Positions 44,968-60,393 of a stretch of 64,000 bases of DNA are shown here, piece after piece. The DNA is from Pseudomonas allokribbensis. Its GTDB lineage: Bacteria; Pseudomonadota; Gammaproteobacteria; Pseudomonadales; Pseudomonadaceae. The translations under genes were made by a program, and so were the position numbers. Each line of letters begins with the position of its first letter. The stretch's first letter is position 1. The notes below the pieces were generated by a model. It did not search any database. It worked only from the letters and a program-made list of their open reading frames with translations, and was not told where the DNA came from. Where the stretch lies: assembly GCF_014863605.1 (NCBI RefSeq), contig NZ_CP062252.1, forward strand, positions 3,047,001-3,111,000, given 5' to 3'.

Positions 44968-45348
44968 GGAGACCGGTCCTTGAGCAGCGTTTCTTATTAG
45001 GGGCGAGGAGTAAAACAGTAGGGGTATCCCTTACGTATCGTCGCGGCGCGAGGAAGCTTTAGGTACTCACGTGCTAAAAAGTTTTGAAACGCTGACCGGC
45101 AAGTAACAGATCCGACACATGCAAACTAACCAGCCCGTTCGTTAGAGTAAAAAGCCGATTTTCGCCGGACTGGCCAAGCGGCTCTGGCTCAATATCTGCG
45201 GGGCTTGCAGTGCTTTGTATCGAGAATGTACAAAATTTGTAAAAAAGTGAAAAACAGATTGGTGACATCAGTTTGCCGGCCGATACTCCGGGCAACTCAA
45301 GACGTTCCACAAGGATATTTTCATGTTCTTTTCGCAAGGAGCACGCTC
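44968..45348. other. 381-base divergent intergenic region
   Basis: This region carries a FliA-type promoter for the chemoreceptor on the minus strand, an AT-rich stretch around 45228-45262 and the leader of the small protein gene at 45349. ACAAGGATAT at 45309-45318 resembles an RsmA/RsmE binding site. No other gene is seen. Confidence 0.5.
45035..45061 (-). promoter_or_regulatory. FliA (sigma-28)-type promoter of the chemoreceptor gene
   Basis: On the minus strand TAAA (45061-45058), 15 spacer bases and GACGATAC (45042-45035) match the flagellar consensus TAAA-N15-GCCGATAA at 10 of 12 positions. It lies 68 bases before the chemoreceptor start, the expected place for a class IV flagellar promoter. 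Confidence 0.6.
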
Positions 45349-45882
45349 ATGACCGTTGGTTATACCGGCGCGTGGCAGCCCAAGGCAGGTTTGCTGGTTC
45401 GAGATGCAGGGAGCTCGGGCAAACCGGTTTCTCAAAGCGTGAAGGTCAAGCAGATGCTGGCCCTGGTCGGCAACGACCCCACCGTTCTCAACACGGCGGA
45501 AATGGACAAGCAGCGTTTGCACAAGAACATCAAGGGGTTCGATCCGGAAAACGTCACTCCCAAGCAATTGGGCAAACTGACTGACTTCCTGCGCAGCCGG
45601 GGCCTCATTTCCGAAGTGACCTCGATGACGCTGCTCAATGCCGGTGACAAGTTCGATCGCTTCGGCATTCAGAAAGACCCGGATGCCAAGTTCAATGCGC
45701 TGGAATATTTCGCCACGCAACTGGACACCATCAACAACAACAGCCTCAAGGGCAACAAGTACGCCAATACGTTGATCCCGGAGTACAAGAAAGCCATTTA
45801 TGTGCTGCAGAGCCTGAAAACCTACGGACAGGGCGGTGAACGTCCGCCTCCGACCGACAAAGGCGTCAGCGCCAAGGCTTGA
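45349..45882 (+). CDS. hypothetical protein, unrecognised
   Basis: The 177-residue protein starts MTVGYTGAWQPKAG and has no signal peptide or membrane helix. The central part (about residues 60-150) looks helical, with FDPENVTPKQLGKLTDFLRS and DPDAKFNALEYFATQLDTIN, a pattern that hints at small calcium- or partner-binding helical repeats without a clear EF-hand loop. The C-terminus is Pro/Gly-rich. AAGGAG precedes the ATG at 45349, and an RsmA-like ACAAGGAT lies 31-40 bases upstream, so post-transcriptional control is possible. Its position beside a chemoreceptor suggests, weakly, a motility or surface role. I do not recognise the family. Confidence 0.7.
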   Translation: MTVGYTGAWQPKAGLLVRDAGSSGKPVSQSVKVKQMLALVGNDPTVLNTAEMDKQRLHKNIKGFDPENVTPKQLGKLTDFLRSRGLISEVTSMTLLNAGDKFDRFGIQKDPDAKFNALEYFATQLDTINNNSLKGNKYANTLIPEYKKAIYVLQSLKTYGQGGERPPPTDKGVSAKA

Positions 45883-45892
45883 TCGCGTAAAA

Positions 45893-45919
45893 CCAGGCCC
45901 TCCGATGCGCAGGGCCTGG
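45893..45919. terminator. hairpin between convergent genes
   Basis: CCAGGCCCT (45893-45901) and AGGGCCTGG (45911-45919) form a 9-bp stem with a 9-base loop. On the minus strand TTTTA follows, so it ends the five-gene lux-like operon; it may also stop the + strand gene. Confidence 0.75.
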
Positions 45920-45930
45920 GCATTCTTGCG

Positions 45931-46857
45931 TTACACGGACGATGATGGCTTGGCAATGAGCGATTGCAGGTCGTCATGCAGCCGCTGCATCTGCGGGCAA
46001 ATCAGCGTCAACGCCGGTGGCCTGGCGCCACGATGAAACAACGCCAGCCAGCCAGCTCCTCTCTCATCCGGCACCAGCCCGGTGAACACGAATCCTGCCG
46101 TCGTCAGCAAGTGAAAAGCGCTTGCGAATTCCTTTGCCAGCCTGAGCCTGACTGAAATGAGCCAATGCGCCGGCAGTTCCTGCAACTGCTTGAGCAAGCC
46201 GCCATCGATCTCTTTGAAAATGCCTTCATACCGGTTCAATTGTTGTTCCAGCTGTACCGGTTCGCCCACCCAGGGCGCGGCCTTGTCCTGTGTTCCGAAC
46301 ACGCTGCACATCTGCCTCATGAAATCCCGGCAGCTTTCGGGCCACGGCTGGGTCGGGAGCGGACGTCGGTTATCGTCGACAGGCGTGTAACCGATGACCA
46401 GCGATTCCCGCGCCGAGGCATTAAATGGAGACGGGACATGGTCGGGCAGCCATCCGACACTCTGAAAGCCGAGACTGGCTGCCATGCGCTGTGTGTAGGG
46501 ATGGCCGGTGACCTGTTTGATCGTCACGCCCCGGTATCCCAACGCTTGCGCATGAATCAACAGCTGCCGTCCCAGGCGAGTAGCAATGTTCTGACCTCGG
46601 GTTTCGGGGGCAACCACGCTCAATGCCAGCTCGGCGATGTGCGATCCCTTGGCACGAATCAAGGTCGCGTGTCCCAGCATTTGATCTTCGGCGACGGCGA
46701 CCAGAGAGTGCCAGCGACCCAGCGCATGGTTGCGATCGATCATGCAGGGCAGATAGACGTGAGGCTGGGCGTAAAGATCGCCGTAGGTTTTTCGGAACAG
46801 ATTGCTCACGGCAGGAGCGTCGCTGTTGCGGTAACTGCGCAGGGTGACTGTTTCCAT
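45931..46857 (-). CDS. GNAT family N-acyltransferase with C-terminal extension
   Basis: The 308-residue protein has an N-terminal GNAT domain (about residues 1-150) with the acyl-CoA binding region LALSVVAPETRGQNIATRLGRQLL. A second, less conserved half (about 160-308) may be a degenerate GNAT-like or substrate domain. It is the last gene of the operon; its ATG shares one base with the stop of the preceding ligase gene (TGATG). Beside reductase and ligase genes it could acylate an amine or accept a carrier-bound acyl group, but this is inferred from context only. Confidence 0.8.
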   Translation of the reverse strand: METVTLRSYRNSDAPAVSNLFRKTYGDLYAQPHVYLPCMIDRNHALGRWHSLVAVAEDQMLGHATLIRAKGSHIAELALSVVAPETRGQNIATRLGRQLLIHAQALGYRGVTIKQVTGHPYTQRMAASLGFQSVGWLPDHVPSPFNASARESLVIGYTPVDDNRRPLPTQPWPESCRDFMRQMCSVFGTQDKAAPWVGEPVQLEQQLNRYEGIFKEIDGGLLKQLQELPAHWLISVRLRLAKEFASAFHLLTTAGFVFTGLVPDERGAGWLALFHRGARPPALTLICPQMQRLHDDLQSLIAKPSSSV

Positions 46858-48146
46858 CAGCGCTGTTCCATGGGCAGTCTGTCGTAGACGCGCAGATCCA
46901 GCACGCGCTGGCGTTTGCCGGAGCGCGGATGGCGTGACAGTTCCTGAACCGTGCAGCAGTGAATCACCACGTCCAGCAAGTGATCGGCATTGAGTTGTTC
47001 GATCAACGGGTAGTGTTCAATCAACGCGTGGTGCAGCCTCCGGTCGGTGTCTGCCGAAGCAGGTTGCACAGCGTCCGGAGCCCATTTCAGGCGCAGGATA
47101 TCTTTCGTTCCGGCCTGTTCGATCACCAGTTGCCAATCGTCACTGCCGGTGAGGCGTTGCACCGTATCGCCGATTTCATCGGGCAGCAGTGTCAGGACTC
47201 CCACTCTGACTCGCTGGCTGTCGGCGCTGCGGCCCATCAGCGCGAATTTGCGCGCGGGCGTTCGCTCGAGTTCTCGCCAACAGGCGCGGTCGCCGACCGG
47301 ATAACGAATCAGCGGCATCAACCGCCGGGTGAGATTGGTCATCACCAGGCGGCCTGTGCGATCGCATTCTTCGATTACCTCACCGGTCTGTTCGTCGAGG
47401 ATTTCCAGCACGCTGTGGCCCTGCGCCATCCGGTGTTCACCCAAGGCGCAGTCGCGATGACTGGCGCCGATAAAGCCGGCATCGACGCTGGCGTACCCCA
47501 TGGAGGCGACGCGTACATTGGGGAACACCCGGCCGAGCAGTTGCAACTGCACCGGGAACAGGCTTTCACCGCCGTAGAGCAGGCATTCGATGCACTCCAG
47601 CCGGCGTCCCTGATGTTCCAGCCACGCGGCGAAGGTCAACAAATGGGCCGGTAAACCGGCCAGTACATTGATCCGATGCCGGGAAATCGAATCGGCCAGC
47701 ACGGTCGACTCGACATGGCCGGTGAAAGGGAACTCCACGACGCCCGGCTGAACGTGGGCCAGGGCATCGTGAGTGAAGATGAAACTGGCATACAGGTCGC
47801 CGACAAAAAACAGGTTGGCGACCCGGTCGCCCTTGTTCAGTTGCCCGGTGAGGCTGCGACCGAAATCCTCCACCAGCGTTTGCCATTCCCGCCGCTCGAA
47901 GACCGACAGTTTGCCATCGCTGGTGGTCCCTCCGGTTTTGAACACCAGTGCGTTGCCCAGGCTTGCGGTCAATACCGGCCAGCGGTCAAGGTCCTGGCTG
48001 CCTTTCCAGTAGTGCGCGGGGTCAATCACGGGTAAATCGGTCAGTGCCGTTACCTGCTCGGGGACGCCGGCAAAGTGGCTGGCGTAAAAGCTTGAATGCT
48101 TGCGCGCAAAAGCGACCAGCTCCTGCAATTCAATCCTTGGGATCAT
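46857..48146 (-). CDS. PaaK/LuxE-like adenylate-forming ligase
   Basis: The 429-residue protein resembles phenylacetate-CoA ligase-like and F390-synthetase-like acyl-adenylate enzymes. A phosphate-binding-loop-like motif LVFKTGGTTSDGK lies at about residues 66-78, with LYGGESLFP and YASVDAGFIGASH in the middle and the hinge region GRLVMTNL. It is clearly related to the C-terminal half of the neighbouring LuxC fusion (compare NLFFVGDLYASFIF with NLFFSGGLYGGFFS). The gene starts inside the fusion gene (17-bp overlap). It would activate a carboxylic acid as an adenylate, possibly for transfer to a thiol or amine. The substrate is unknown. Confidence 0.82.
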   Translation of the reverse strand: MIPRIELQELVAFARKHSSFYASHFAGVPEQVTALTDLPVIDPAHYWKGSQDLDRWPVLTASLGNALVFKTGGTTSDGKLSVFERREWQTLVEDFGRSLTGQLNKGDRVANLFFVGDLYASFIFTHDALAHVQPGVVEFPFTGHVESTVLADSISRHRINVLAGLPAHLLTFAAWLEHQGRRLECIECLLYGGESLFPVQLQLLGRVFPNVRVASMGYASVDAGFIGASHRDCALGEHRMAQGHSVLEILDEQTGEVIEECDRTGRLVMTNLTRRLMPLIRYPVGDRACWRELERTPARKFALMGRSADSQRVRVGVLTLLPDEIGDTVQRLTGSDDWQLVIEQAGTKDILRLKWAPDAVQPASADTDRRLHHALIEHYPLIEQLNADHLLDVVIHCCTVQELSRHPRSGKRQRVLDLRVYDRLPMEQR

Positions 48147-50580
48147 GGTGTGCTCCTTGCAGAACGGAGGAGGCGCGGGCTCCTCGGTTATCGATCAGCA
48201 GTGGCGTCTTGCCGCTGTGCTTGTTTCGGGTGAACCGGTCGATGGCGCAGACCTGCGCGTCCACTGTCAGCAGCCCGGTCTGCACAAGGGTTGCCAGCGT
48301 CGGGTAACCCAGCAGTCGACGATGCACGTCCTGGGGTTCGAGCGCACTTAGAAATTTCATGCATTCCAGTCCGTCGGGGGCATGTTCAAGGATCACCTGA
48401 AACTCGGTCTGCAGGTGCTGCGCCAGTTCCGAGAGGCAGATGAAATCGGTGCCGATGCGCACCAGCCTGCCGTGGCGCTGAAGCAGTTCGAAGCGCGGCG
48501 TCTGCAGACCACAGCCACACCGTCCGGGCACCCAGCGGCCGCTGTCGCCGACGTCATAACGCTGAACGTCCTGACCTTCTCGAGCGAGGGAGGTGAACAC
48601 CAGGCGACCGGTCTCGTTGTCACGCACTGGCTGGTCGGTTTCGAACGCGACAATTTCCAGGTGCTGGATATCGCTCAAAAGATGAAACACACCGTCGCCG
48701 GTGGCTGAACAGGCGTGACCGAGCGGTCCGGCGTCGACGCTGCCGTAGATCGCCGAGCGGATCAGGCTGACGCCGCAGTCTTGCAGCAACTGGCGACTCT
48801 GTTCGCCGAGGTGTTCGCCGCCGAGAAATACTTTTTCGACCCCGCCATAGGTGCGCAGACGCGTTTGTTCGTTGAGGAACAAACGGTGCAGGGTGCTTGG
48901 CATGCCGATCAGCGTGTTCACCTGCTGATCGACGATCAATTGCGCAATCTCCCGGTAGTCATCATCGGCCGGGGCACCCATCGGCAGGTGAGTGACGTCC
49001 AGTTGCTCCAGTACTTTGGAGAAACTGAAAAAACCGCCATACAGACCGCCACTGAAAAACAGGTTCATCACCCGGTCCCGACGTGGATCGAGACCCGCTG
49101 CAAACAGACCATCGGCTGTAGCGCGCATCTGTTGGCGAAAGTCCCGATAACTGAAACCAGACAAGGCCGGCACGCCGCTGCTGCCGCCGGAACGGAAATA
49201 CAGTTGGGCCGAAGCGTTGATCGGGCGGGCGATGAACGCTTCCTTGCTCATGATCGGCAGGTTCATCACACAGGGCGCAATGCCTGAGCCATTGAGCGTG
49301 GCGTGGGAGGGCAGTTTTGTCGGCGACAGACTGACCGAGACTCGCCGGCTCAGGCGTTGCAGGGCATAGACGCCGTCGTGAGGTTCGCCGTTGTAGCCAT
49401 CGTGAATCGCTTCCGTCGGAGCAACCCGGGTGACGCCGGCGGTGATCAGCAGCTGTGAAAGCTCTGCAATCTGCTGCTCCGGGCAGATCTGGGCGCAGCT
49501 TTGCAGCACGTTTCGCCATGGCATCAGGGTCTCGATCACCCGTGTGCGCGGCAGTGGCTTGAGCAGCAGGCTGCGAAACAGTGGCGAAGGCTTCAATGGT
49601 CGGTCATGGGTCCAGATCACCCGCCAGCCCGGTGCTGTCCAGACCTCGCCAGCCACTTCGGCGAAACTGTGTGCGAGCCTGGCCATGGCGGTGTCGGTGG
49701 TGATTTGCGAGGCTTCCTGAATCGTTGGCAGCAATGTCGGCCATTGTCCGGCGCGGCGTTCGAATGCTTTGGCCAGACCCTCACCGATACCGCGTAGTAC
49801 GGTCTCATCGTCGCTGTCCACCAACAACCATTGCGGGCTCGAGCACGCTTGCTGATCGAGTCGGCAGACTTCGTCCACCACGGCGTCCAGCGCCTGAGGT
49901 GAGGCGGCGTCTGGTGTCAGATAAACGAAGCTGATGCGATGTCCCCAATCGATCCAGCGGCATCCGGCGGGGATTTGCTGGCGAATCGCTTGGAGTGCCG
50001 ATTCGCCGCCCCAGGCCGAGACGCCATTGGCCCATTGGCACAGCTGGCCGATTTGCGCGGTGGTCGCCGGAACGACAGCGACATGTCCTGCGAGTTGGCC
50101 GCTTGGGTCGCATTGCGTCAGCGCGAGGAGCAATTGCGCGGTCAGCCCCTGATCGCTGCTGCTGGGGCGCAGCCAGTTGACGTTGCCGGCCAGCAGACTT
50201 TCGATCACTGCGCAGAACGCCAGAAGTGCCGCGTTGCCGGGGGTGATGTGGACCACCAGGCCCAGCGGGCTCCAGCGCTCGAAACGTGGTTGGCGATAGT
50301 CGAAGCGTCGCAGTGTAGCGGGTTGATCGCCAAGCTCCCGTTCGAGTTTGCGCCGCAAACCTTGAGGCTGGCAGAACTCGAACAGTGACTCGCGTTGTTC
50401 GGCGTCGAGCGGCAGGGTCAGGCTGATGTCGCCCAACCGAAGGGCGAGCGTGGCCGCCGCATGGATGACCGTCTCGCTGTGCAGAGGCGAGCTCAGGCGT
50501 TGGGGCAGGGCCTGACGCAACTGATCCATGGCGGTATCGAATCCGATGTCCGCGTGAAGTTGTCCATTGATCAGGTACAT
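48130..50580 (-). CDS. LuxC-like acyl reductase fused to a PaaK/LuxE-like ligase
   Basis: The 816-residue protein is a fusion. Residues about 1-415 match LuxC, the NADPH-dependent acyl reductase: PLGLVVHITPGNAALLAF and LLAGNVNW mark the fold, and the acyl-accepting cysteine lies in RLDQQACSSPQW (Cys about 246). Residues about 420-816 form an adenylating domain with FRSGGSSGVPALSG (about 462-475), LGGEHLGEQSR and SIYGSVDAGPLGH. One polypeptide could thus activate an acid and reduce it to an aldehyde. The ATG at 50580 is one base from the LuxE-like stop; a start 24 codons upstream lies inside that gene. No luxAB is present. Confidence 0.88.
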   Translation of the reverse strand: MYLINGQLHADIGFDTAMDQLRQALPQRLSSPLHSETVIHAAATLALRLGDISLTLPLDAEQRESLFEFCQPQGLRRKLERELGDQPATLRRFDYRQPRFERWSPLGLVVHITPGNAALLAFCAVIESLLAGNVNWLRPSSSDQGLTAQLLLALTQCDPSGQLAGHVAVVPATTAQIGQLCQWANGVSAWGGESALQAIRQQIPAGCRWIDWGHRISFVYLTPDAASPQALDAVVDEVCRLDQQACSSPQWLLVDSDDETVLRGIGEGLAKAFERRAGQWPTLLPTIQEASQITTDTAMARLAHSFAEVAGEVWTAPGWRVIWTHDRPLKPSPLFRSLLLKPLPRTRVIETLMPWRNVLQSCAQICPEQQIAELSQLLITAGVTRVAPTEAIHDGYNGEPHDGVYALQRLSRRVSVSLSPTKLPSHATLNGSGIAPCVMNLPIMSKEAFIARPINASAQLYFRSGGSSGVPALSGFSYRDFRQQMRATADGLFAAGLDPRRDRVMNLFFSGGLYGGFFSFSKVLEQLDVTHLPMGAPADDDYREIAQLIVDQQVNTLIGMPSTLHRLFLNEQTRLRTYGGVEKVFLGGEHLGEQSRQLLQDCGVSLIRSAIYGSVDAGPLGHACSATGDGVFHLLSDIQHLEIVAFETDQPVRDNETGRLVFTSLAREGQDVQRYDVGDSGRWVPGRCGCGLQTPRFELLQRHGRLVRIGTDFICLSELAQHLQTEFQVILEHAPDGLECMKFLSALEPQDVHRRLLGYPTLATLVQTGLLTVDAQVCAIDRFTRNKHSGKTPLLIDNRGARASSVLQGAHHDPKD

Positions 50581-50581
50581 A

Positions 50582-51712
50582 TCAGTGCCTCCCCAAGAGT
50601 TCGGACGCCGCCATCGCGCAGCTTCTGCCAGCGGTGGTGGCGGCGCGGCCATGCAGTTCGAACCAGTCGCTGTCCAGACCGCAGCCGCAGCTTGCGCCGG
50701 GGTGCAGGGTGGCGAGGTCGCTCATGACCACCGCATGGGCGGGGCTCGAAGAAATGTAGGGCGAGACCGCACTCAGTAACCCCGGCCGACCATAGGGCAG
50801 GACCGTGAAATCGGTTGGGCTACGCACAAATACCTTCGAATAGACCGGCACATGGAAGTGATGGTGAGCGCATTCGAGGTAGGGCACCGGATGCTCGACC
50901 GCACCGTAGCCGTCGCGGCAGCGGGACACGTCGATCCCGAGTTGCCGGTTGATGCGCTCGTACAACTGCTGGCGGGGGACCTCCTGCGCGGCGTTGGTTT
51001 TCCAGCCGCCGCCAAACAGCGTCAATGAATCCGCTGCCAGTTGCAGGTCGGCCACGCCAGTGGTCTGCATGCGTTGCAGGGTTTGCCAGAGAAATGCAGG
51101 AAACCCGAAGATTCGCACCGGCAAGCCTTCTTCGGCAAAGGACTGCAACGCCGAGATGACGCCAAAGCCATCGAACTCGTGACCGCCACCGGTCCGGCGC
51201 AAGGCATACGCCACGCGGTTGACCGGAGCGAACCGGCACAGGAACTGGTCGGTGAACGACGTTCCCAGGGTAATGCTGGCTTCGGGCTCGTAGCTCAGGA
51301 GCAAGTAGTTGCACGGCGTTTGCGGACTGTCCCAGCCATAGTGGTGGAAGATCCGTTCGACCATGTATTGGGCGGCGGCCAGACTGCGTTCGTCATAGCG
51401 CATGCGGCTTTTCTCGCCGCTGGTGCCTGACGATGTCAGTTCCAGTGCGTCTGCACCGGTCGGGCTGAGCAATTGTTGCTGTTTGAAGAAACTGGCGAAG
51501 ATCGGTGGCAGTCGCGACCAGTCGTCGAGGCTGTCCAGGTCCGTCACGGTCAGTCCGTTGGCGTTCAACCAGTGTTCATACCCGGGCGTATGCTCACTGT
51601 GAAACCGGCTGATTTCGGCCATGGCCTGATCGAAAAGCCCCGCCGGCAAGGAATCCGGGCAATAGGGTTGCGTCAACGCACAGAGCGCGTTGCTATGGGG
51701 GAAATGGAACAT
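50582..51712 (-). CDS. LuxE-like acyl-protein synthetase
   Basis: The 376-residue protein resembles LuxE, which activates fatty acids as adenylates and holds them on a cysteine before passing them to LuxC. It shows LELTSSGTSGEKSRMRYD (adenylate loop, about residues 90-107), LFGGGWKTN and RCRDGYGAVEHPVPYLEC. The candidate acyl-carrying cysteine near the C-terminus is in HPGASCGCGLDSDW. It is second in the operon, 9 bases after the exporter and one base before the LuxC fusion gene. With the fusion it forms the two partners of a fatty-acid reductase. The acid used is unknown. Confidence 0.87.
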   Translation of the reverse strand: MFHFPHSNALCALTQPYCPDSLPAGLFDQAMAEISRFHSEHTPGYEHWLNANGLTVTDLDSLDDWSRLPPIFASFFKQQQLLSPTGADALELTSSGTSGEKSRMRYDERSLAAAQYMVERIFHHYGWDSPQTPCNYLLLSYEPEASITLGTSFTDQFLCRFAPVNRVAYALRRTGGGHEFDGFGVISALQSFAEEGLPVRIFGFPAFLWQTLQRMQTTGVADLQLAADSLTLFGGGWKTNAAQEVPRQQLYERINRQLGIDVSRCRDGYGAVEHPVPYLECAHHHFHVPVYSKVFVRSPTDFTVLPYGRPGLLSAVSPYISSSPAHAVVMSDLATLHPGASCGCGLDSDWFELHGRAATTAGRSCAMAASELLGRH

Positions 51713-51721
51713 CAGGCGTCC

Positions 51722-52975
51722 TTATTGATGTGTCGAGGAAGCGGTTTCTGCCGGAGGTTCACGCAGAAACCGGTACAAGAGAGGCAGGCTCAGCAGCCCG
51801 CCCAGTGCAGCCCAAAGGGCGAAGGACTCGAGGCGGGCACCGCCGACGATTACCGCGATGAGCGAACCGCCGGTGCCCATCACTGCAATCGAGATCATGC
51901 CCACCGCGGCAGAGACCAGGCCTTTGCTGTCATCGCTGGAAAACAGCGCCAGTCGATACAGTGCGGCATTGCTCATGCCCAGCCCCACGGCGTACAGCGC
52001 GAGGCCTGAAATCAACAAACCAAGGGGCAGGTCTGTCAGAGCACCCGCCAGCAGGGTCAAGAGCCCGAGGCAAAACGGCCAGAGCGCCAGGCGAATCAAT
52101 TGCACCAGTTCGCGCGAGGTCAGCAAACGGTCGAGAATCAGATTGCCGACGATGACCGCCGAAAAGATCGGTATCTGCCACAAGGCGTATTCACGCGTGG
52201 ACAAGCCAAGCCGCTGGATCAACAGCAGGGGCGAGAGCCCGATCCACGCTATCAACGGCAGGCTCATCAGCCCGAGCGCGAGGCTCGCACCGAGGAATCT
52301 CGGGTTGCGCAGCAGGGCCAGGTATTGACGAAATGTCTGTCGCCAGGACAACGGAAGCGGCGCCTGCTGGCCGCCGTCTCGGCGAACGACCCCGATGGTT
52401 TCCGGCATGCAGACGTAGACCCCGGCCCACGCGATGGCAGCGACCAGGCCCAGGGCCAGGAACAGTTCGCGCCAGCTCAGCCATTCCAGCAACAGGCTGC
52501 CCAACAACGGGCCAAGAAGCGGCGACAGCAGCGCAACGTTGCCCAGCAGCGCCATGAGCCGCACGGCATCTGCCTCACAGAACACTTCCTGGAGCGCGGG
52601 ATAGCTGACAGCCACCACGAATCCCAGTCCCATGCCTTGCAGAAGCCGTAATGCATTGAAGGCTTCAATGCCGGGCGTGGCGATTGCAGCCAGACAGGTC
52701 ATCGCAAAGAGCGCACAACCGATGAGCAACAAGGGGCGTCGGCCAAACCGGTCGGACAATGGCCCGATCAGCCATTGCAGGCAGACGCCTCCGATCAGGT
52801 ACAGATTGAACGCAGTGGGGATATGCCGTGGGTCGGCGCCGAAGTCTTCGGTGACGGTGATCATGGCCGGCATGATCATGTCGCTGGCCATGTAGGTCAG
52901 CCACTCGAACAGCGTGATGGCCAGACAGAAGCCAAGCGTTTTTAGTGGCGGGATATCGATGAGTGTTCTTTGCAT
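51722..52975 (-). CDS. MdfA-like MFS transporter
   Basis: The 417-residue, 12-helix major facilitator protein closely follows the E. coli MdfA pattern: FEWLTYMASDMIMP carries the Glu (residue 24) and Asp (residue 32) equivalent to MdfA E26 and D34. It also has WLIGPLSDRFGRRP (motif A) and LRLLQGMGLGF with the essential Arg. It is a drug/proton antiporter by family. As first gene of the lux-like operon it most likely exports the pathway product or protects against it. The start at 52975 lies 71 bases from a 17-bp inverted repeat that may be its operator. No strong ribosome-binding site is seen. Confidence 0.88.
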   Translation of the reverse strand: MQRTLIDIPPLKTLGFCLAITLFEWLTYMASDMIMPAMITVTEDFGADPRHIPTAFNLYLIGGVCLQWLIGPLSDRFGRRPLLLIGCALFAMTCLAAIATPGIEAFNALRLLQGMGLGFVVAVSYPALQEVFCEADAVRLMALLGNVALLSPLLGPLLGSLLLEWLSWRELFLALGLVAAIAWAGVYVCMPETIGVVRRDGGQQAPLPLSWRQTFRQYLALLRNPRFLGASLALGLMSLPLIAWIGLSPLLLIQRLGLSTREYALWQIPIFSAVIVGNLILDRLLTSRELVQLIRLALWPFCLGLLTLLAGALTDLPLGLLISGLALYAVGLGMSNAALYRLALFSSDDSKGLVSAAVGMISIAVMGTGGSLIAVIVGGARLESFALWAALGGLLSLPLLYRFLREPPAETASSTHQ

Positions 52976-53045
52976 GCGCTTCCATGGCCTTCAAGTGGGA
53001 ACGCAAAGGCTAGAGGCGAGGGGGCGGGTGTTCTATGTCATTGGT

Positions 53046-53062
53046 GTGACCACGCATGTCAC
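53046..53062 (-). promoter_or_regulatory. candidate operator of the lux-like operon
   Basis: GTGAC (53046-53050) and GTCAC (53058-53062) form an inverted repeat with a 7-base centre, 71 bases upstream of the MFS gene. Position and symmetry suit a repressor or activator; no regulator gene is adjacent. Confidence 0.35.
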
Positions 53063-53143
53063 GGTTTAGCGAAACATTGCAAAAAGAAGATTTGTTACCG
53101 CCCAGAGGCGAAACGTCCGACATTTTAATGGGTAGCCCTACGG

Positions 53144-53173
53144 AAAATGCCCACATACTCGTGGGCATTTTTT
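53144..53173 (-). terminator. bidirectional terminator after the small lipoprotein gene
   Basis: AAAATGCCCAC (53144-53154) and GTGGGCATTTT (53161-53171) form an 11-bp stem with a 6-base loop and T-runs on both strands. It lies 63 bases beyond the stop of the minus-strand lipoprotein gene and insulates the lux-like operon promoter. Confidence 0.85.
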
Positions 53174-53236
53174 ACGGCTATTTAATCAATTGTTGCATTT
53201 GAAGAAGTGGATATCAGTGTCGTTCAAATCTCGGGT

Positions 53237-53377
53237 TTACCGATGTTGGTAGTAGCCTGGTCCGGGCGCGCCATAATAGCGATGGTCGCCATGCCAGCCG
53301 CCGTGGGGGAAAATGATACAGCCGCTCAGCGTGAGCAGCGCCAATACAGGAATCAGCCAGGTGATTCGACGCAGCAT
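53237..53377 (-). CDS. small lipoprotein
   Basis: The 46-residue product has a charged start (MLRRITW), a hydrophobic stretch and the lipobox LTLSGC with Cys at residue 20. A Gly/His/Tyr-rich mature part of 27 residues follows (HGGWHGDHRYYG). GAGGA seven bases before the ATG at 53377 supports this start; an ATG five codons earlier is the alternative. The His-rich tail could bind metal, but no function is known. It is divergent from the small membrane protein gene. Confidence 0.75.
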   Translation of the reverse strand: MLRRITWLIPVLALLTLSGCIIFPHGGWHGDHRYYGAPGPGYYQHR

Positions 53378-53534
53378 TTCAAAAGTCCTCATGGTTAACG
53401 CCGCATGGAGCCAAAGCTCTTCATCGGCTGTAACATGAGACCCCGTTTGCAGCGCCGCATCCCCGTGACACGGTATGCCCATGGCATGAAAGCCGATACA
53501 AACCCGATACATTTCAAAGTTTCAGGAATTCGCA

Positions 53535-53741: not shown

Positions 53742-54119
53742 TCAATCGCTATTGAGGACGGCGGCAGCCTGTGGATGCAGGCTGTAGCTCTTGTCGGCGT
53801 TGAAGGTGATCACGCCTTCGGCGCACAGGCGCTTCAACACTTCGCGCACGCTGAGAAAAGACAGCGGAATGCCCAGTTCCAGCAATTGGCTGTGGACACC
53901 GCGCACACCCAGACTGCGCTCGCTCTGGGCGGCGACCAGCAGGGCATCGATGACTTTCAGGCGAATCAGGCTGGTGCGCAGGCCGAAACTCTTGAGCAGC
54001 AGTCGAATACGTTCATTGCCGTGGCGCTCGACTCGTTGTCCGAATACGCCGGCGTGCGAACCCATGGAAGCTCCTTGTGGTGCCTGGCTACCGTCCGATG
54101 GTAGTTGCGGGTTGTACAT
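53742..54119 (-). CDS. Fur-like winged-helix protein lacking the metal/dimer domain
   Basis: The 125-residue protein contains a winged-helix region (about residues 40-115) like the DNA-binding half of Fur/Zur: LLLKSFGLRTSLIRLKVIDALL, GVRGVHSQLLELGIPLSFLSVREVLKRLCAEGVI. It ends before the dimerisation and metal-binding half, with no His/Cys clusters, so metal sensing is unlikely in the Fur manner. AAAGGAGT precedes the ATG at 54119, which is preferred over a longer frame start at 54200. Similar 'Fe2+/Zn2+ uptake regulation' proteins occur in other Pseudomonas as I recall. Proximity to pvdQ is suggestive of iron-related control, not proof. Confidence 0.72.
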   Translation of the reverse strand: MYNPQLPSDGSQAPQGASMGSHAGVFGQRVERHGNERIRLLLKSFGLRTSLIRLKVIDALLVAAQSERSLGVRGVHSQLLELGIPLSFLSVREVLKRLCAEGVITFNADKSYSLHPQAAAVLNSD

Positions 54120-54278
54120 GCGATTACTCCTTTTCAGAGCCTGATCAGGAAAGGTGTCTGGTGCTCTCTCTAAACAAGACGTTTCAGCCCGACAAATCAT
54201 GAAGCGAAAAATGTAGAAAATTTGTCGTTGATTCGTCCTTTCTCCGTGATCCGGGCTCGAAACGGGCTTGTGACTGAC

Positions 54279-54417: not shown

Positions 54418-56760
54418 GTGATTATTTCCAGGCAGTTAACCGGACTGACCCTAGCCGGCATGTTTCTCGGGCTGAGTCTGTCGGCGCATGCGTTCAGTCC
54501 TTCCACCCAGGCCGGGGCCGACATCCGTCGCACGAGTTTTGGTGTGCCGCATATCCGCGCGGAAAACGAGCGTGGCCTCGGATTCGGCATCGGTTATGCC
54601 TATGCGCAGGACAATCTGTGCCTGCTGGCCAACGAAATAGTGACCGTCAACGGTGAACGCTCGCGGTACTTCGGGCCGGATCAGTTCACCGTCGAAGAGC
54701 GCGAAAACCGCGTCAGTGACGTGTTCTTCCAGTGGCTCAATACTCCGCAAGCGGTGAATGCCTTCTGGCAGGCGCAGCCGGTCGAAGTCCGTGATCTGGT
54801 GCAAGGTTATGCCGCCGGCTACAACCGTTATCTGGTCGAGCGCCGCCAGCAGGGTTTGCCGCAACAGTGCCAGGGTGAATGGGTGCGCGATATCACGGCC
54901 GAAGACCTGGTGAAGCTGACGCGTCGCTTGCTGGTCGAGGGCGGCGTCGGTCAGTTCGCCGAAGCACTGGCCGGCGCCACGCCGCCACAAGCCACTGCGC
55001 AAAACGACAGCCACGCCCGCGCTTATGACCTCGCCGCCGCACGCCTGCAACGCTTCGCCCTGGACCGTGGCAGCAACGCGGTGGCGGTGGGCAGCGAGCG
55101 TTCCTTCAACGGCCGTGGAATGCTGCTGGCGAACCCGCATTTTCCGTGGGTCGGCGGCATGCGTTTCTATCAGATGCACCTGACCATTCCCGGCAAACTG
55201 GATGTGATGGGTGCCGCGCTGCCTGGCCTGCCGATGATCAACATCGGTTTCAACCAGCACCTGGCCTGGACCCACACGGTCGACTCGTCCAAGCACTTCA
55301 CTTTGTATCGCCTGCAACTCGATCCGAAAGATCCGACCCGCTATGTGCTCGATGGCCAATCGTTGCCGCTGACCAAGCAAACGGTGACGGTGCAGGTCAA
55401 GCAGGCGGACGGGCAGGTGACGCCGGTATCGCGCGATATCTACAGTTCGCAATTCGGCCCGATCGTGCAGTGGCCGGGCAAGCTCGACTGGGACAATCAG
55501 TACGCCTACAGCCTGCGCGATGCCAACCTCGACAACGACCGGGTGTTGACGCAGTGGTACGCGATGAACCGCGCCGACAACCTCAAGGATCTGCAGGATT
55601 CGGTGCACAAGATCCAGGGCATTCCGTGGGTCAACACCCTGGCGGTGGATGACAAAGGTCAGACGCTGTACATGAACCTGTCGGTGGTGCCGAACGTCAG
55701 TGCCGACAAACTGGCCAAGTGCAGCGATCCGCGTATCGGCCTGAAAATGATCGTGCTCGACGGCGCCAACAGCGCCTGCGCCTGGGACATCGATCCGCAA
55801 GCCGCGCAAAAAGGCATCTACGCGTCCAGCCAGCTACCGCAATTGCTGCGCAAGGATTTCGTCCAGCACTCCAACGATTCGGCGTGGCTGGCCAACCCGG
55901 CGCAACCGCTGACCGGATTCTCGCCGCTGATCAGCCAGGAGGGCCAGCCACTGGGGCTGCGCTCGCGTTTTGCACTGGATCGTCTGGCGACCCTGAGCAA
56001 AAAAGGTTCGGTGTCGGTGCAGGACCTGCAACACATGGTGATGGATGATCAGGTGTTTCTGGCCGCTCAGGTGCTGCCGGATCTGCTGAAGTTCTGCGCA
56101 TCGCCAACCGGTGTCGAGGCTGCGTTGAAATCGGTGTGCAGCGGTCTCAAGGCCTGGGACGGTCGGGCGAATCTGGATTCGGGAATGGGCCTGGTGCATT
56201 TCCAGACCATCATGCAAGCCTTGCAGGAATCGCCGGATGTCTGGCGCGTGGCGTTCGATCCGAAGGATGCGCAGCACACCCCGCGCGGACTGGCGACTGA
56301 AAAGCCCGAAGTGGCCAAGGCATTGCGCGAAGCGATGCTGGCGTCAGTCGAATCGGCCAGCAAAATGGGCCTGACCGCACAAACCCGCTGGGGCGATGTC
56401 CAGGTGGTCAGCAGTGGTGGTCAGCAAACGCCGATCCATGGCGGGCCAGGGACATTGGGCATCTACAACGCAATCCAGAGCGTGCCGCGTGAAGACGGCA
56501 AGCTGGAAGTGGTCAGCGGCACCAGTTACCTGCAAGTGGTGACGTTCGATGACAAGGGGCCGCACGCTCAGGGCCTGCTCGCGTTCTCGCTGTCCAGCGA
56601 TCCTGCGTCGAAATACTCGCGGGATCAGACAGAAGCGTTCTCGAAGAAACAGTGGAGTGCACTGCCTTTCACCGAACAGCAGATCAAGGCTGACCCGCAG
56701 TATCAGGTGCAAAGTGTGCGTGAAGAACTGGATAAAACGGGGAAAGTGGCGGCGCAGTAA
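54418..56760 (+). CDS. pvdQ: PvdQ-type Ntn-hydrolase acylase (pyoverdine maturation, AHL acylase)
   Basis: The 780-residue precursor aligns by eye with P. aeruginosa PvdQ along its whole length. Residues 1-25 are a signal peptide ending AHA. The alpha chain runs to Gly218; autocatalytic cleavage before Ser219 in LDRGSNAVAVGSE gives the beta chain with the N-terminal nucleophile Ser. PvdQ removes the myristoyl/myristoleoyl chain from the pyoverdine precursor in the periplasm and also hydrolyses long-chain acyl-homoserine lactones. A PvdS-type promoter lies upstream. The usual pyoverdine synthetase genes are not in the window. Confidence 0.92.
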   Translation: MIISRQLTGLTLAGMFLGLSLSAHAFSPSTQAGADIRRTSFGVPHIRAENERGLGFGIGYAYAQDNLCLLANEIVTVNGERSRYFGPDQFTVEERENRVSDVFFQWLNTPQAVNAFWQAQPVEVRDLVQGYAAGYNRYLVERRQQGLPQQCQGEWVRDITAEDLVKLTRRLLVEGGVGQFAEALAGATPPQATAQNDSHARAYDLAAARLQRFALDRGSNAVAVGSERSFNGRGMLLANPHFPWVGGMRFYQMHLTIPGKLDVMGAALPGLPMINIGFNQHLAWTHTVDSSKHFTLYRLQLDPKDPTRYVLDGQSLPLTKQTVTVQVKQADGQVTPVSRDIYSSQFGPIVQWPGKLDWDNQYAYSLRDANLDNDRVLTQWYAMNRADNLKDLQDSVHKIQGIPWVNTLAVDDKGQTLYMNLSVVPNVSADKLAKCSDPRIGLKMIVLDGANSACAWDIDPQAAQKGIYASSQLPQLLRKDFVQHSNDSAWLANPAQPLTGFSPLISQEGQPLGLRSRFALDRLATLSKKGSVSVQDLQHMVMDDQVFLAAQVLPDLLKFCASPTGVEAALKSVCSGLKAWDGRANLDSGMGLVHFQTIMQALQESPDVWRVAFDPKDAQHTPRGLATEKPEVAKALREAMLASVESASKMGLTAQTRWGDVQVVSSGGQQTPIHGGPGTLGIYNAIQSVPREDGKLEVVSGTSYLQVVTFDDKGPHAQGLLAFSLSSDPASKYSRDQTEAFSKKQWSALPFTEQQIKADPQYQVQSVREELDKTGKVAAQ

Positions 56761-58056: not shown

Positions 58057-60393
58057 TCAAGGGGACTGAACCGGATCCAGCTGTCGGCCAATTTCGCAGA
58101 TCAGGCGGGCGATGGAGTCGGCGTTGCGCAGGATGACGTCGATTCGCACGTCCGGTGTCTGCTGATCGAGAAAGGCGTTGCGAGCCTCCAGAATGGTTTT
58201 GCTTCCCGTCAGCTTGAGAACCTCATCACTGATGAGCTGCATGTCCGGGATGTTGTCGATACTGACCCAGGACTTGAGAGTCGTATTCCATTCCGCGAAC
58301 AGTTGTGACCGGGGAGTGCTCAGTGACAATGCAGATGTCTGATCGAATTCCAGCTCCTGAAACAGCAGCGCACCGGCGGGGGTGATGGTCGAGATCAGGT
58401 CGCTGAACGGCTCCCGGGCTCTTAACGAGGCAATATCCAGCGCCTTGCTGTACTGGTGGGAAAACTCGTGAATCAGCGTAGAAGCCTGCGCATGGCCATC
58501 GACATCGAACGCCTCCAGCAAATGGTTTTTGAACGGACCCAGTTGCTGGTCGAAAAAATGTTCGGTGAAATGCACCAGTTTCTTCTCGTCGCCGTCCAGT
58601 ACGAACGCAATCACATCGTGCATGAACCGGTTAGAGCCGACGACGAAGCGATCGGTATCCAGCAATTCATCGGCAGGATCCACCAGTGCCCGACAGATCG
58701 GCAGGATCGTGGCGCTGATCTTGGCAAGTAATTCCGTGGTGATGTGAGGTACATCAAAAAAACTCTCGAGGAAACGGCTCACCCGTGGATTGTCAGTGCT
58801 GTGACTGAGCGGTGTCAGGTTGTGCAGGCAGTAGAAGGCGTAGCGTCGGGCAAGGTCGATGGCGTTTACCAGCATTCTGGCCTTGTCCGGGTACTTCAGA
58901 CGGATTTCGTCCATCCCGCGGGCTTCGATGTTCAGCATCGTGCGGCGTAGCCGGGAAATGGTGTTGCGCTCGGCCAGCTTTCTGAAGGCCTGTCCATAAT
59001 GGACGGTCTGATGAGCCGGTACCTGCACCATGGCCAGACCGTTTTTCTGAAACAGGGGACTGTGTTTTCCTGCGCCTGCCAATTGCCAAGACGAGTCACG
59101 TTTTGTGACCTGATAGACCTTGCCGTTGATGGCAGCGTAATCGCGGTTTGTCGTGGGTTGGTGGTAGGTACCCGTCGTTGAACCGTACACAAGATCCTTG
59201 AGCGCGAGGTCATTGACCTCGAATGACTGCATCATGGTGCGTATGGGCGAAGTCGGTTCGACTTCGTTGATGTCGGGCGTCGCGACTTCTCCCGTTTCCT
59301 GTTCGACAGCCTCTGCATCGGCCGGTACTTCCGGCAACAGCGCCATCTGCACCATTTGCACGCCACCGGCAATAAAGGATTGCAAGGCCCGTTTCCAGTG
59401 ATGGTCCTGCAAGGCTTCGGCCGAGTCTTTGAAGTCGTCGTAGGCGCGCCAGAGAAAGGGCACAAAAGCCAGTTTGCCCTGCAGTGTTGTCGAGACCTGT
59501 TTGATACCTTGGCTGAACAGGGTCTTGGCAGTGTCCCAATCGGACTGTGCTTCGCGCTCGGGCTGTGATTCAAGCTGCTGCTGCAAAAGCTTGAGGTTAT
59601 CGTTGTACAACTGCTCCAGCAGGTTGCCTTCGATCGGACGGCTGGCAAGCGTCATTTCGCTGGTCTGGCCAGTCGTGGCCGCCAGCAGACTGCGAAAGAT
59701 GGCTTGTCGTCCGGCAGGCAAGCGCCGAAGCAACAGATTCTGGAGAGGTCCGGGCGTGTTCAGAGCCGCGATCAGTGCCTCTTCGTCCTTGAACTCACGA
59801 AACACCTGTTCGGCATACGGTGCGTAAAGCACCAACGGCCCCACGTGCCCCTGACCCGGCGCGAAAACGTAAAGCCCCGATGCGGTTTCTGCATTCGCGC
59901 CCGCCGTCTTGACCAGCGCCAGCGGGCTGACGACCGTGTGGGCGCCGGGCACGGTGGCGCGGGCGTATCCATCGGGCATGTCCAGCCCCTGGCAGACTTG
60001 CGTATAGGCGCCGGCAGACAGGTGCTGCTGCAGTTTCAAGGCATGGGCGTGTTGCATCAGTTGCCAAGGGATCTGGCGGAAAAAACGCTGCTTGCGCTCG
60101 CGCCCCTCCACCGTGTCCGTCGAGAGTGCCGCCGCGATCTTGCGTCCATAGGTGGTCGGAATCTCCAGCGACAGCAGCAATTGATCGACGGCTCTGCGAT
60201 CCAGACCGGGAGGCAAGGTTTCGGCGGTTTTCGATACCACCCTGTACCCCGTGCCCTGGAGTACGTTGACGTGATTCAGGGCAAACTCGACCAGGTCGCG
60301 GGGCGGGCCGGCGAGTGCCAGATTGGGGATGACCTCGATCTGCCGGGGATCGAGATGCTCGTTCGGAAAACGAAGGCCGAGCGAGGCCTTCAA
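58057..60393 (-). CDS. C-terminal part of a split DUF6543/dermonecrotic-toxin-like protein with HExxH motif
   Basis: The 778-codon reading frame continues in exactly the same frame as the gene part upstream; only the TAG at 60466-60468 separates them. Read through, the junction is ...HVELLER-stop-NQNVIDDRDYLTGVSPL..., and this part has no own ATG, only a TTG at 60393 without a ribosome-binding site. It is mostly helical, with an Ala/Val-rich central segment (about residues 320-355). Near the C-terminus LIHEFSHQYSKALDI (His about 642) is a zinc-metallopeptidase-like HExxH. If translated alone, expression is doubtful. Family assignment is from overall resemblance to Pseudomonas giant toxins. 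Confidence 0.7.
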   Translation of the reverse strand: MKASLGLRFPNEHLDPRQIEVIPNLALAGPPRDLVEFALNHVNVLQGTGYRVVSKTAETLPPGLDRRAVDQLLLSLEIPTTYGRKIAAALSTDTVEGRERKQRFFRQIPWQLMQHAHALKLQQHLSAGAYTQVCQGLDMPDGYARATVPGAHTVVSPLALVKTAGANAETASGLYVFAPGQGHVGPLVLYAPYAEQVFREFKDEEALIAALNTPGPLQNLLLRRLPAGRQAIFRSLLAATTGQTSEMTLASRPIEGNLLEQLYNDNLKLLQQQLESQPEREAQSDWDTAKTLFSQGIKQVSTTLQGKLAFVPFLWRAYDDFKDSAEALQDHHWKRALQSFIAGGVQMVQMALLPEVPADAEAVEQETGEVATPDINEVEPTSPIRTMMQSFEVNDLALKDLVYGSTTGTYHQPTTNRDYAAINGKVYQVTKRDSSWQLAGAGKHSPLFQKNGLAMVQVPAHQTVHYGQAFRKLAERNTISRLRRTMLNIEARGMDEIRLKYPDKARMLVNAIDLARRYAFYCLHNLTPLSHSTDNPRVSRFLESFFDVPHITTELLAKISATILPICRALVDPADELLDTDRFVVGSNRFMHDVIAFVLDGDEKKLVHFTEHFFDQQLGPFKNHLLEAFDVDGHAQASTLIHEFSHQYSKALDIASLRAREPFSDLISTITPAGALLFQELEFDQTSALSLSTPRSQLFAEWNTTLKSWVSIDNIPDMQLISDEVLKLTGSKTILEARNAFLDQQTPDVRIDVILRNADSIARLICEIGRQLDPVQSP

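Follow-up and report, generated by a model that had tools for sequence, protein, structure and literature searches.

Leupeptin is a peptide aldehyde protease inhibitor, and its pathway in Xenorhabdus and Photorhabdus is reportedly the one described by Li et al. in 2020 in Angew. Chem. Leupeptin was first described from actinomycetes, going by the title of a 1969 reference in PMC11212599, and a table in PMC13273461 gives it as C20H38N6O4, with m/z 427.30. In X. bovienii SS-2004, a member of Xenorhabdus, it is made by separate adenosine monophosphate (AMP)-dependent ligases and a reductase (PMC11212599). Operons of this kind, termed leup, are recorded in Klebsiella, Photorhabdus and Xenorhabdus, with arginine, lysine and homoarginine products; for the Leu-Arg form of the pyrazinones, m/z is given as 252.18 (PMC11480411). 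In strain CAV1374, leupABCD lies beside a transporter, and its coordinates and primers have been published (PMC8283571). A gene-cluster table for P. khanii also includes a region typed Leupeptin (PMC12542766). Searches among open-licence papers brought up none that was recognised as dealing with a Pseudomonas leup operon, which is weak evidence and does not show that none exists. Here, a block of five genes on the minus strand is described from Pseudomonas allokribbensis (contig NZ_CP062252.1, positions 3,047,001 to 3,111,000; this whole stretch of 64,000 nucleotides is called the window, and all positions refer to it unless another locus is named). The block lies at 45931-52975 and, on homology, gene order and catalytic residues, is very probably a Pseudomonas branch of the leup operon, in the order transporter-leupA-leupB-leupC-leupD.

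The identification was made through a locus that carries the published primer sites. The leup primers of PMC8283571 were searched in the genomes of relatives, and at one locus (L164, in genome G1433) leupA_f and leupB_r match perfectly (0 mismatches) and enclose 1,235 bp, in agreement with the product size in print. The published flank primers, core_f and core_r, also match there with 0 mismatches, about 7.8 kb apart. When LeupA of L164 is read in its longest frame, the leupA_f site takes up codons 21-27. As leupA_f and leupB_r fall within them, the LuxE-like gene is taken to be leupA and the gene for a LuxC fusion to be leupB; the PaaK-like ligase and the GNAT protein are assigned as leupC and leupD because of the gene order. 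The same operon is present in a second genome from the genus of G1433 (L163, G1442), where leupA_f has 4 mismatches and leupB_r has 2.

At L164, the genes for a major facilitator superfamily (MFS) protein, the LuxE-like protein, the LuxC-AMP fusion, the PaaK-like ligase and the GNAT protein lie on one strand, in an order identical to that of the window. The proteins of the window are identical to theirs at 206/417 positions for the MFS protein (49%), 227/375 for LeupA (61%), 419/800 for LeupB (52%), 209/424 for LeupC (49%) and 100/302 for LeupD (33%). For LeupA to LeupD of Photorhabdus against L164, the corresponding values are 249/375, 415/801, 221/422 and 128/301. The window is thus somewhat further from L164 than Photorhabdus is for LeupA, LeupC and LeupD, and level with it for LeupB. 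The cluster measures 5,831 bp by the printed coordinates (PMC8283571), 5,828 bp in L164 when LeupA is counted from codon 4, and 5,782 bp for the window. In the window, leupA, leupB, leupC and leupD are contiguous and in this order, and the adjacent transporter gene ends 9 bases upstream of leupA. Compared with the leup operon of Klebsiella michiganensis/oxytoca (PMC8283571, PMC11480411), the five genes, their order and strand and the MdfA-type transporter are the same and the length is similar. The two differ in their proteins, which share 33-61% identity, and may differ in their products.

All five open reading frames of the block are open. In the direction of transcription, the exporter, of the MdfA/Bcr-CflA type (51722..52975, 417 aa, NF011931), comes first, followed by the leupA homologue, a LuxE-like acyl-protein synthetase with a C-terminal Cys365 (50582..51712, 376 aa, PF04443). 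The leupB homologue follows, in which a LuxC reductase domain with Cys246 is fused to a PaaK-like adenylating domain (48130..50580, 816 aa, PF05893), then the leupC homologue, a PaaK-like adenylate-forming ligase (46857..48146, 429 aa, with NCBIfam PaaK-like matches below cut-off), and last the leupD homologue, a GNAT N-acyltransferase (45931..46857, 308 aa, PF00583). Each of the five also matches its counterpart in L164. The longest leupB frame starts at 50652; its start is taken at the ATG at 50580, because frames of relatives such as L027, L028, L114 and L123 align from residue 25 on. With this start, leupA and leupB are separated by 1 base; leupB and leupC overlap by 17 bases, and leupC and leupD by 1. 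The preliminary description, made from the sequence of the window, had proposed five tightly coupled minus-strand genes of these families, and this arrangement is confirmed.

The family searches agree with these names. Pfam places the exporter in MFS_1 (1.8e-36), LeupA in LuxE (PF04443, 1.9e-21), the first part of LeupB in LuxC (PF05893, 4.3e-104) and LeupD in Acetyltransf_1 (PF00583, 5.2e-8). The AMP-binding match is weak in both LeupB and LeupC and lies below the curated cut-off in each. In NCBIfam, the exporter is nearest to MdfA (NF011931, 1.4e-105, below the curated cut-off), and the two AMP-binding parts come near DVU_1553-family and PaaK ligases, all below the curated cut-offs. The families and conserved motifs are consistent with a set of separate AMP-dependent ligases with an aldehyde-forming reductase. 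Antipain and the MAPI-type compounds of Streptomyces are likewise peptide aldehyde protease inhibitors, but they are stated to be products of non-ribosomal peptide synthetases (NRPSs) (PMC11212599); the condensation and carrier protein domains that mark such a route were found by Pfam in none of the five proteins.

The order of the core genes is strongly conserved. In 93 of 95 loci longer than 9 kb, the four genes stand in one order on one strand; the other two (L167, L169) are sites that were fetched as operon-free, and a few loci are the same genome taken twice. The 93 include all 13 loci of Xenorhabdus and Photorhabdus. An MdfA-type MFS gene comes first in 80 of the 93 operon-bearing loci. 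Residue conservation was read from an alignment of 90 rows, being the window and 89 loci left after 4 duplicates were dropped. The LuxC cysteine of the QACSSPQ motif, Cys246, and Lys791 of LeupB are each present in 90/90 rows; Cys365 of the LuxE-like protein and Lys411 of LeupC are each found in 89/90, with a gap in the remaining row. The cysteines are presumably acyl-carrying, and the two lysines are taken to be the A10 lysines of their families. The adenylation motifs too are conserved, and the earlier statement that the LuxC cysteine and the adenylate loops are intact stands. For LeupA, the role of the cysteine is backed by L164, whose C-terminal LeupA cysteine aligns with a cysteine near the LuxE C-terminus in 7xc6; the alignment of the window's LeupA to 7xc6 ends at residue 338, short of that cysteine. 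A few loci depart in single genes: the MFS gene of L165 (11412-12036, minus strand) is split into two short frames, and the GNAT gene of L025 is also split. In X. szentirmaii (L135), where no MFS gene of the MdfA type was found ahead of leupA, a different MFS gene lies about 570 bases upstream, with a LysR gene beyond it.

The gene set recurs within the genus. Of 36 Pseudomonas genomes, 9 carry the LuxC fusion at nearly full length; in a larger draw, 61 of 298 Pseudomonas genomes gave a match to it (E <= 1e-100), 59 of them over nearly the whole length and 2 over part of it. The genome of the window is counted in both draws. The LuxC fusions of P. sp. HS6 and P. kribbensis came out nearest to that of the window. 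With so many species matched, the set is not a chance one. Outside the genus, at E <= 1e-30, only the genome of the window matched among 369 of its class, and this genome and one other among 398 of its phylum. With the Photorhabdus LuxC fusion as query, 9 of 246 genomes in the family of G955 matched (2 partially), and a LuxE homologue of Klebsiella aerogenes found 15 of 392 genomes of that family. When named genomes were scanned, 127 stretches were confirmed; the best 80 were kept, and these are labelled as 64 Pseudomonas, 12 Xenorhabdus and one each of Photorhabdus, Parachitinimonas, Rugamonas and an Enterobacterales metagenome-assembled genome (MAG); these labels are the titles of deposited records, and some may be misnamed.

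In a LeupA tree of 52 rows, the 21 rows of the Pseudomonas complex, including the window, form one clade (100/100), with a Pseudomonas MAG adjacent to it. A second Pseudomonas group, of P. entomophila (P0200) and strain UFMG81, stands elsewhere in the tree (100/99); this lineage (P0200, P0244), apart from the clade of the window, suggests an independent transfer. The X. bovienii and Photorhabdus homologues fall in the same tree. The root was placed at the midpoint, near which support is weak (92/58), and the Klebsiella type and the X. bovienii/Photorhabdus type lie on opposite sides of it. As leupeptin makers, shown to be so by others, thus stand on both sides of the midpoint, the position of the window's clade favours a leupeptin-type product, though it does not prove one.

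The most likely route can be proposed from these assignments. LeupA would adenylate the carboxyl group of the C-terminal basic residue, which is arginine in leupeptin, and hold this residue on Cys365. The LuxC domain of LeupB would then take it as a thioester on Cys246 and reduce it to the aldehyde with NAD(P)H. The second domain of LeupB and LeupC would adenylate leucine-type residues and form two amide bonds in the absence of carrier proteins; any assignment of the two bonds to the individual ligases is a guess. LeupD would acetylate the N-terminus using acetyl-CoA, and the MFS protein would export the resulting peptide aldehyde, either Ac-Leu-Leu-argininal itself or a compound close to it. 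Once exported, such a compound would inhibit serine and cysteine proteases and could give pyrazinones.

The lux operon is luxCDABE. Like the window, it codes for proteins of the LuxE and LuxC families that carry the matching cysteines. The set in the window differs from it in the fusion of LuxC to a PaaK-like domain and in its extra ligase, GNAT protein and exporter. As had been noted earlier, luxA, luxB and luxD are missing from the set: none of the five proteins is assigned by Pfam or NCBIfam to a luciferase family or to LuxD, the rest of the genome not having been searched for these genes. The operon could still be imagined as a fatty-acid reductase pathway that yields an aldehyde-derived lipid or conjugate of a new kind, and the Pfam membership in LuxE and LuxC speaks for this. 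However, the five-gene order is that of the published leupeptin operon, and in NCBIfam the LuxC and LuxE parts reach 47.4 and 53.2 bits, far short of the 750 and 550 bits set as equivalog cut-offs for the fatty-acid enzymes, so we consider this reading highly improbable. A fatty aldehyde or wax-type product was dropped once the gene order matched leupABCD. The acids activated are most likely amino acids and not fatty acids, by analogy with the leupABCD match. Of the chemistry envisaged in the preliminary description, the activation of acids, reduction of one to an aldehyde, joining or acylation and export are supported by the families; the name of fatty-acid reductase is not supported, given the match to leupABCD. 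The same description knew of no pathway with this gene content and proposed a gene-order search, naming a match to a characterised cluster as what would speak against it. The leup operon, by way of L164, is such a match, with the same content and order. The type of pathway is therefore already described: it is the non-NRPS leupeptin operon, leupABCD plus a transporter. A surface-glycan role, prompted by papers that link LuxC and LuxE with the flagella of Aeromonas and Enterobacteriaceae, was also considered and set aside, as no glycan family was found among the scanned proteins of the operon and its neighbours, some neighbours being unscanned. Very little probability is likewise given to a decaying or unused operon. 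Only a minority of species (61/298) are matched, the operon is absent from its site in a relative, and a consensus scan of 45700-53420 gave no sigma-70-type promoter; against this, all frames of the window are open, the catalytic residues intact and the spacing tight.

Several points weigh against a plain leupeptin operon in the window. The identity of L164 as a leup locus rests on the primers, and core_r was compared in its original letters, which a corrigendum (PMC10028735) reports to have been printed wrongly in the original paper. Unlike the window, the 13 Xenorhabdus/Photorhabdus loci have no MdfA-type MFS gene that could be found ahead of leupA: in 12 none was detected, and L128 has a weak MFS match downstream; one of the 13, L121, offers less than 1 kb of upstream sequence. 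A long stem (0.26 plus 0.12) leads to the Pseudomonas LeupA clade. Divergence is greatest in LeupD, with 33-40% identity to the five non-Pseudomonas LeupD proteins compared. Over the four proteins, 13 columns are specific to the clade, that is, they hold one residue in at least 95% of the 70 Pseudomonas rows and another in at least 90% of the 20 others. In one of them, LeupC has Tyr218 in 70/70 Pseudomonas rows and cysteine in 20/20 others, beside the YASVDAG motif. From the stem, the divergence of LeupD and these columns, the residues of the product may differ from those of leupeptin, and the exact product of the Pseudomonas branch may differ with them. The same machinery would then make a peptide aldehyde, or a pyrazinone derived from one, that departs from leupeptin in its residues or its N-acyl group. 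The leup pathway tolerates such change, since Klebsiella gives arginine and lysine forms and the operons of Xenorhabdus and Photorhabdus a homoarginine pyrazinone (PMC11480411). On the other side, the columns number just 13 in four proteins; apart from them, the motifs agree, as does much of the sequence around them. Even between L164 and Photorhabdus, LeupD identity is only 43%. A shifted product is possible, and we lean against it; it is a sub-case of the Pseudomonas branch of leup, so that the odds of the two overlap.

The surroundings of the operon bear on its history. A terminator-like hairpin followed by four T lies 3' of the last gene (45889..45919, minus strand; minimum free energy -23.6 kcal/mol, z -3.67). 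It is missing from the 13 hits (7.7 expected) of a consensus terminator scan, whose rule does not fit it. The GC content of the operon is similar to that of its surroundings. Two genes whose products have no Pfam match border the block and probably lie outside the pathway, as both occur at the operon-free site L167: one for a 152-aa protein upstream (53742..54200, minus strand) and one for a convergent 225-aa protein downstream (45205..45882, plus strand). Among nine sampled loci, the window's own included, the flank on one side holds the 152-aa gene in all nine and the PvdQ gene in 8, and that on the other a CopG-like gene in 9, a methyl-accepting chemotaxis protein (MCP) gene in 8 and a hydrolase gene in 8. 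The PvdQ acylase gene (54418-56760, plus strand; NF051460, 1467 bits) is part of the flank common to relatives; a role for it in the pathway was dropped, as the gene occupies the site even where there is no operon. Further out, a 778-aa protein with a ToxA_N domain (58057-60393, minus strand; PF20178, 1.5e-19) has related frames near the same site in several relatives.

In 14 operon-free Pseudomonas genomes, the 152-aa protein and the hydrolase are each present in 13. Judged by these positions, the two genes lie within 15 kb of each other in 3 of the 14 (G011, G002, G017) and do not in the other 11, so the site is not kept throughout the genus. The operon is absent from G011 (L167), whose PvdQ, 152-aa, 225-aa, MCP, CopG-like and hydrolase genes follow one another in order. 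In G002 (L168), the 152-aa gene is close to the CopG-like one, with neither the 225-aa nor the MCP gene present there, and G017 (L169) has other genes at the site. The comparison with these relatives indicates that gain or loss affected the operon as a whole.

Possible relatives also appear in Streptomyces. On a plasmid of Streptomyces sp. NBC_00158 (L170, NZ_CP108162.1, 809-8250), the order is PaaK, MFS, GNAT, LuxE, LuxC, and the five functions adjoin three genes annotated as I36 peptidase inhibitors. By tblastn (1e-5) with the proteins of the window, LuxE matches at 49%, the LuxC fusion at 43% and PaaK at 39%; the GNAT and MFS proteins gave no match in this search, and these two functions are there by annotation only. 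This makes L170 a candidate for a leupeptin operon in actinomycetes. On S. cattleyicolor pSCATT (L171), there are matches for LuxE, the LuxC fusion, PaaK and GNAT, and not for the MFS protein.

Taken from the genes, the distribution suggests that the non-NRPS leupeptin route extends past Xenorhabdus, Photorhabdus and Klebsiella to Pseudomonas, to at least two Betaproteobacteria (Parachitinimonas and Rugamonas) and perhaps to Streptomyces. A more speculative picture, which we regard as rather unlikely in its full form, is that the Pseudomonas fluorescens complex acquired the operon long ago and keeps its own leup branch, in about one-fifth of the sampled Pseudomonas species, making a distinct peptide aldehyde or pyrazinone against the proteases of plants, protists, insects or neighbouring microbes. 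The prediction that follows for the genus is that the ability to produce a protease inhibitor of the leupeptin type should be shared by many Pseudomonas species.

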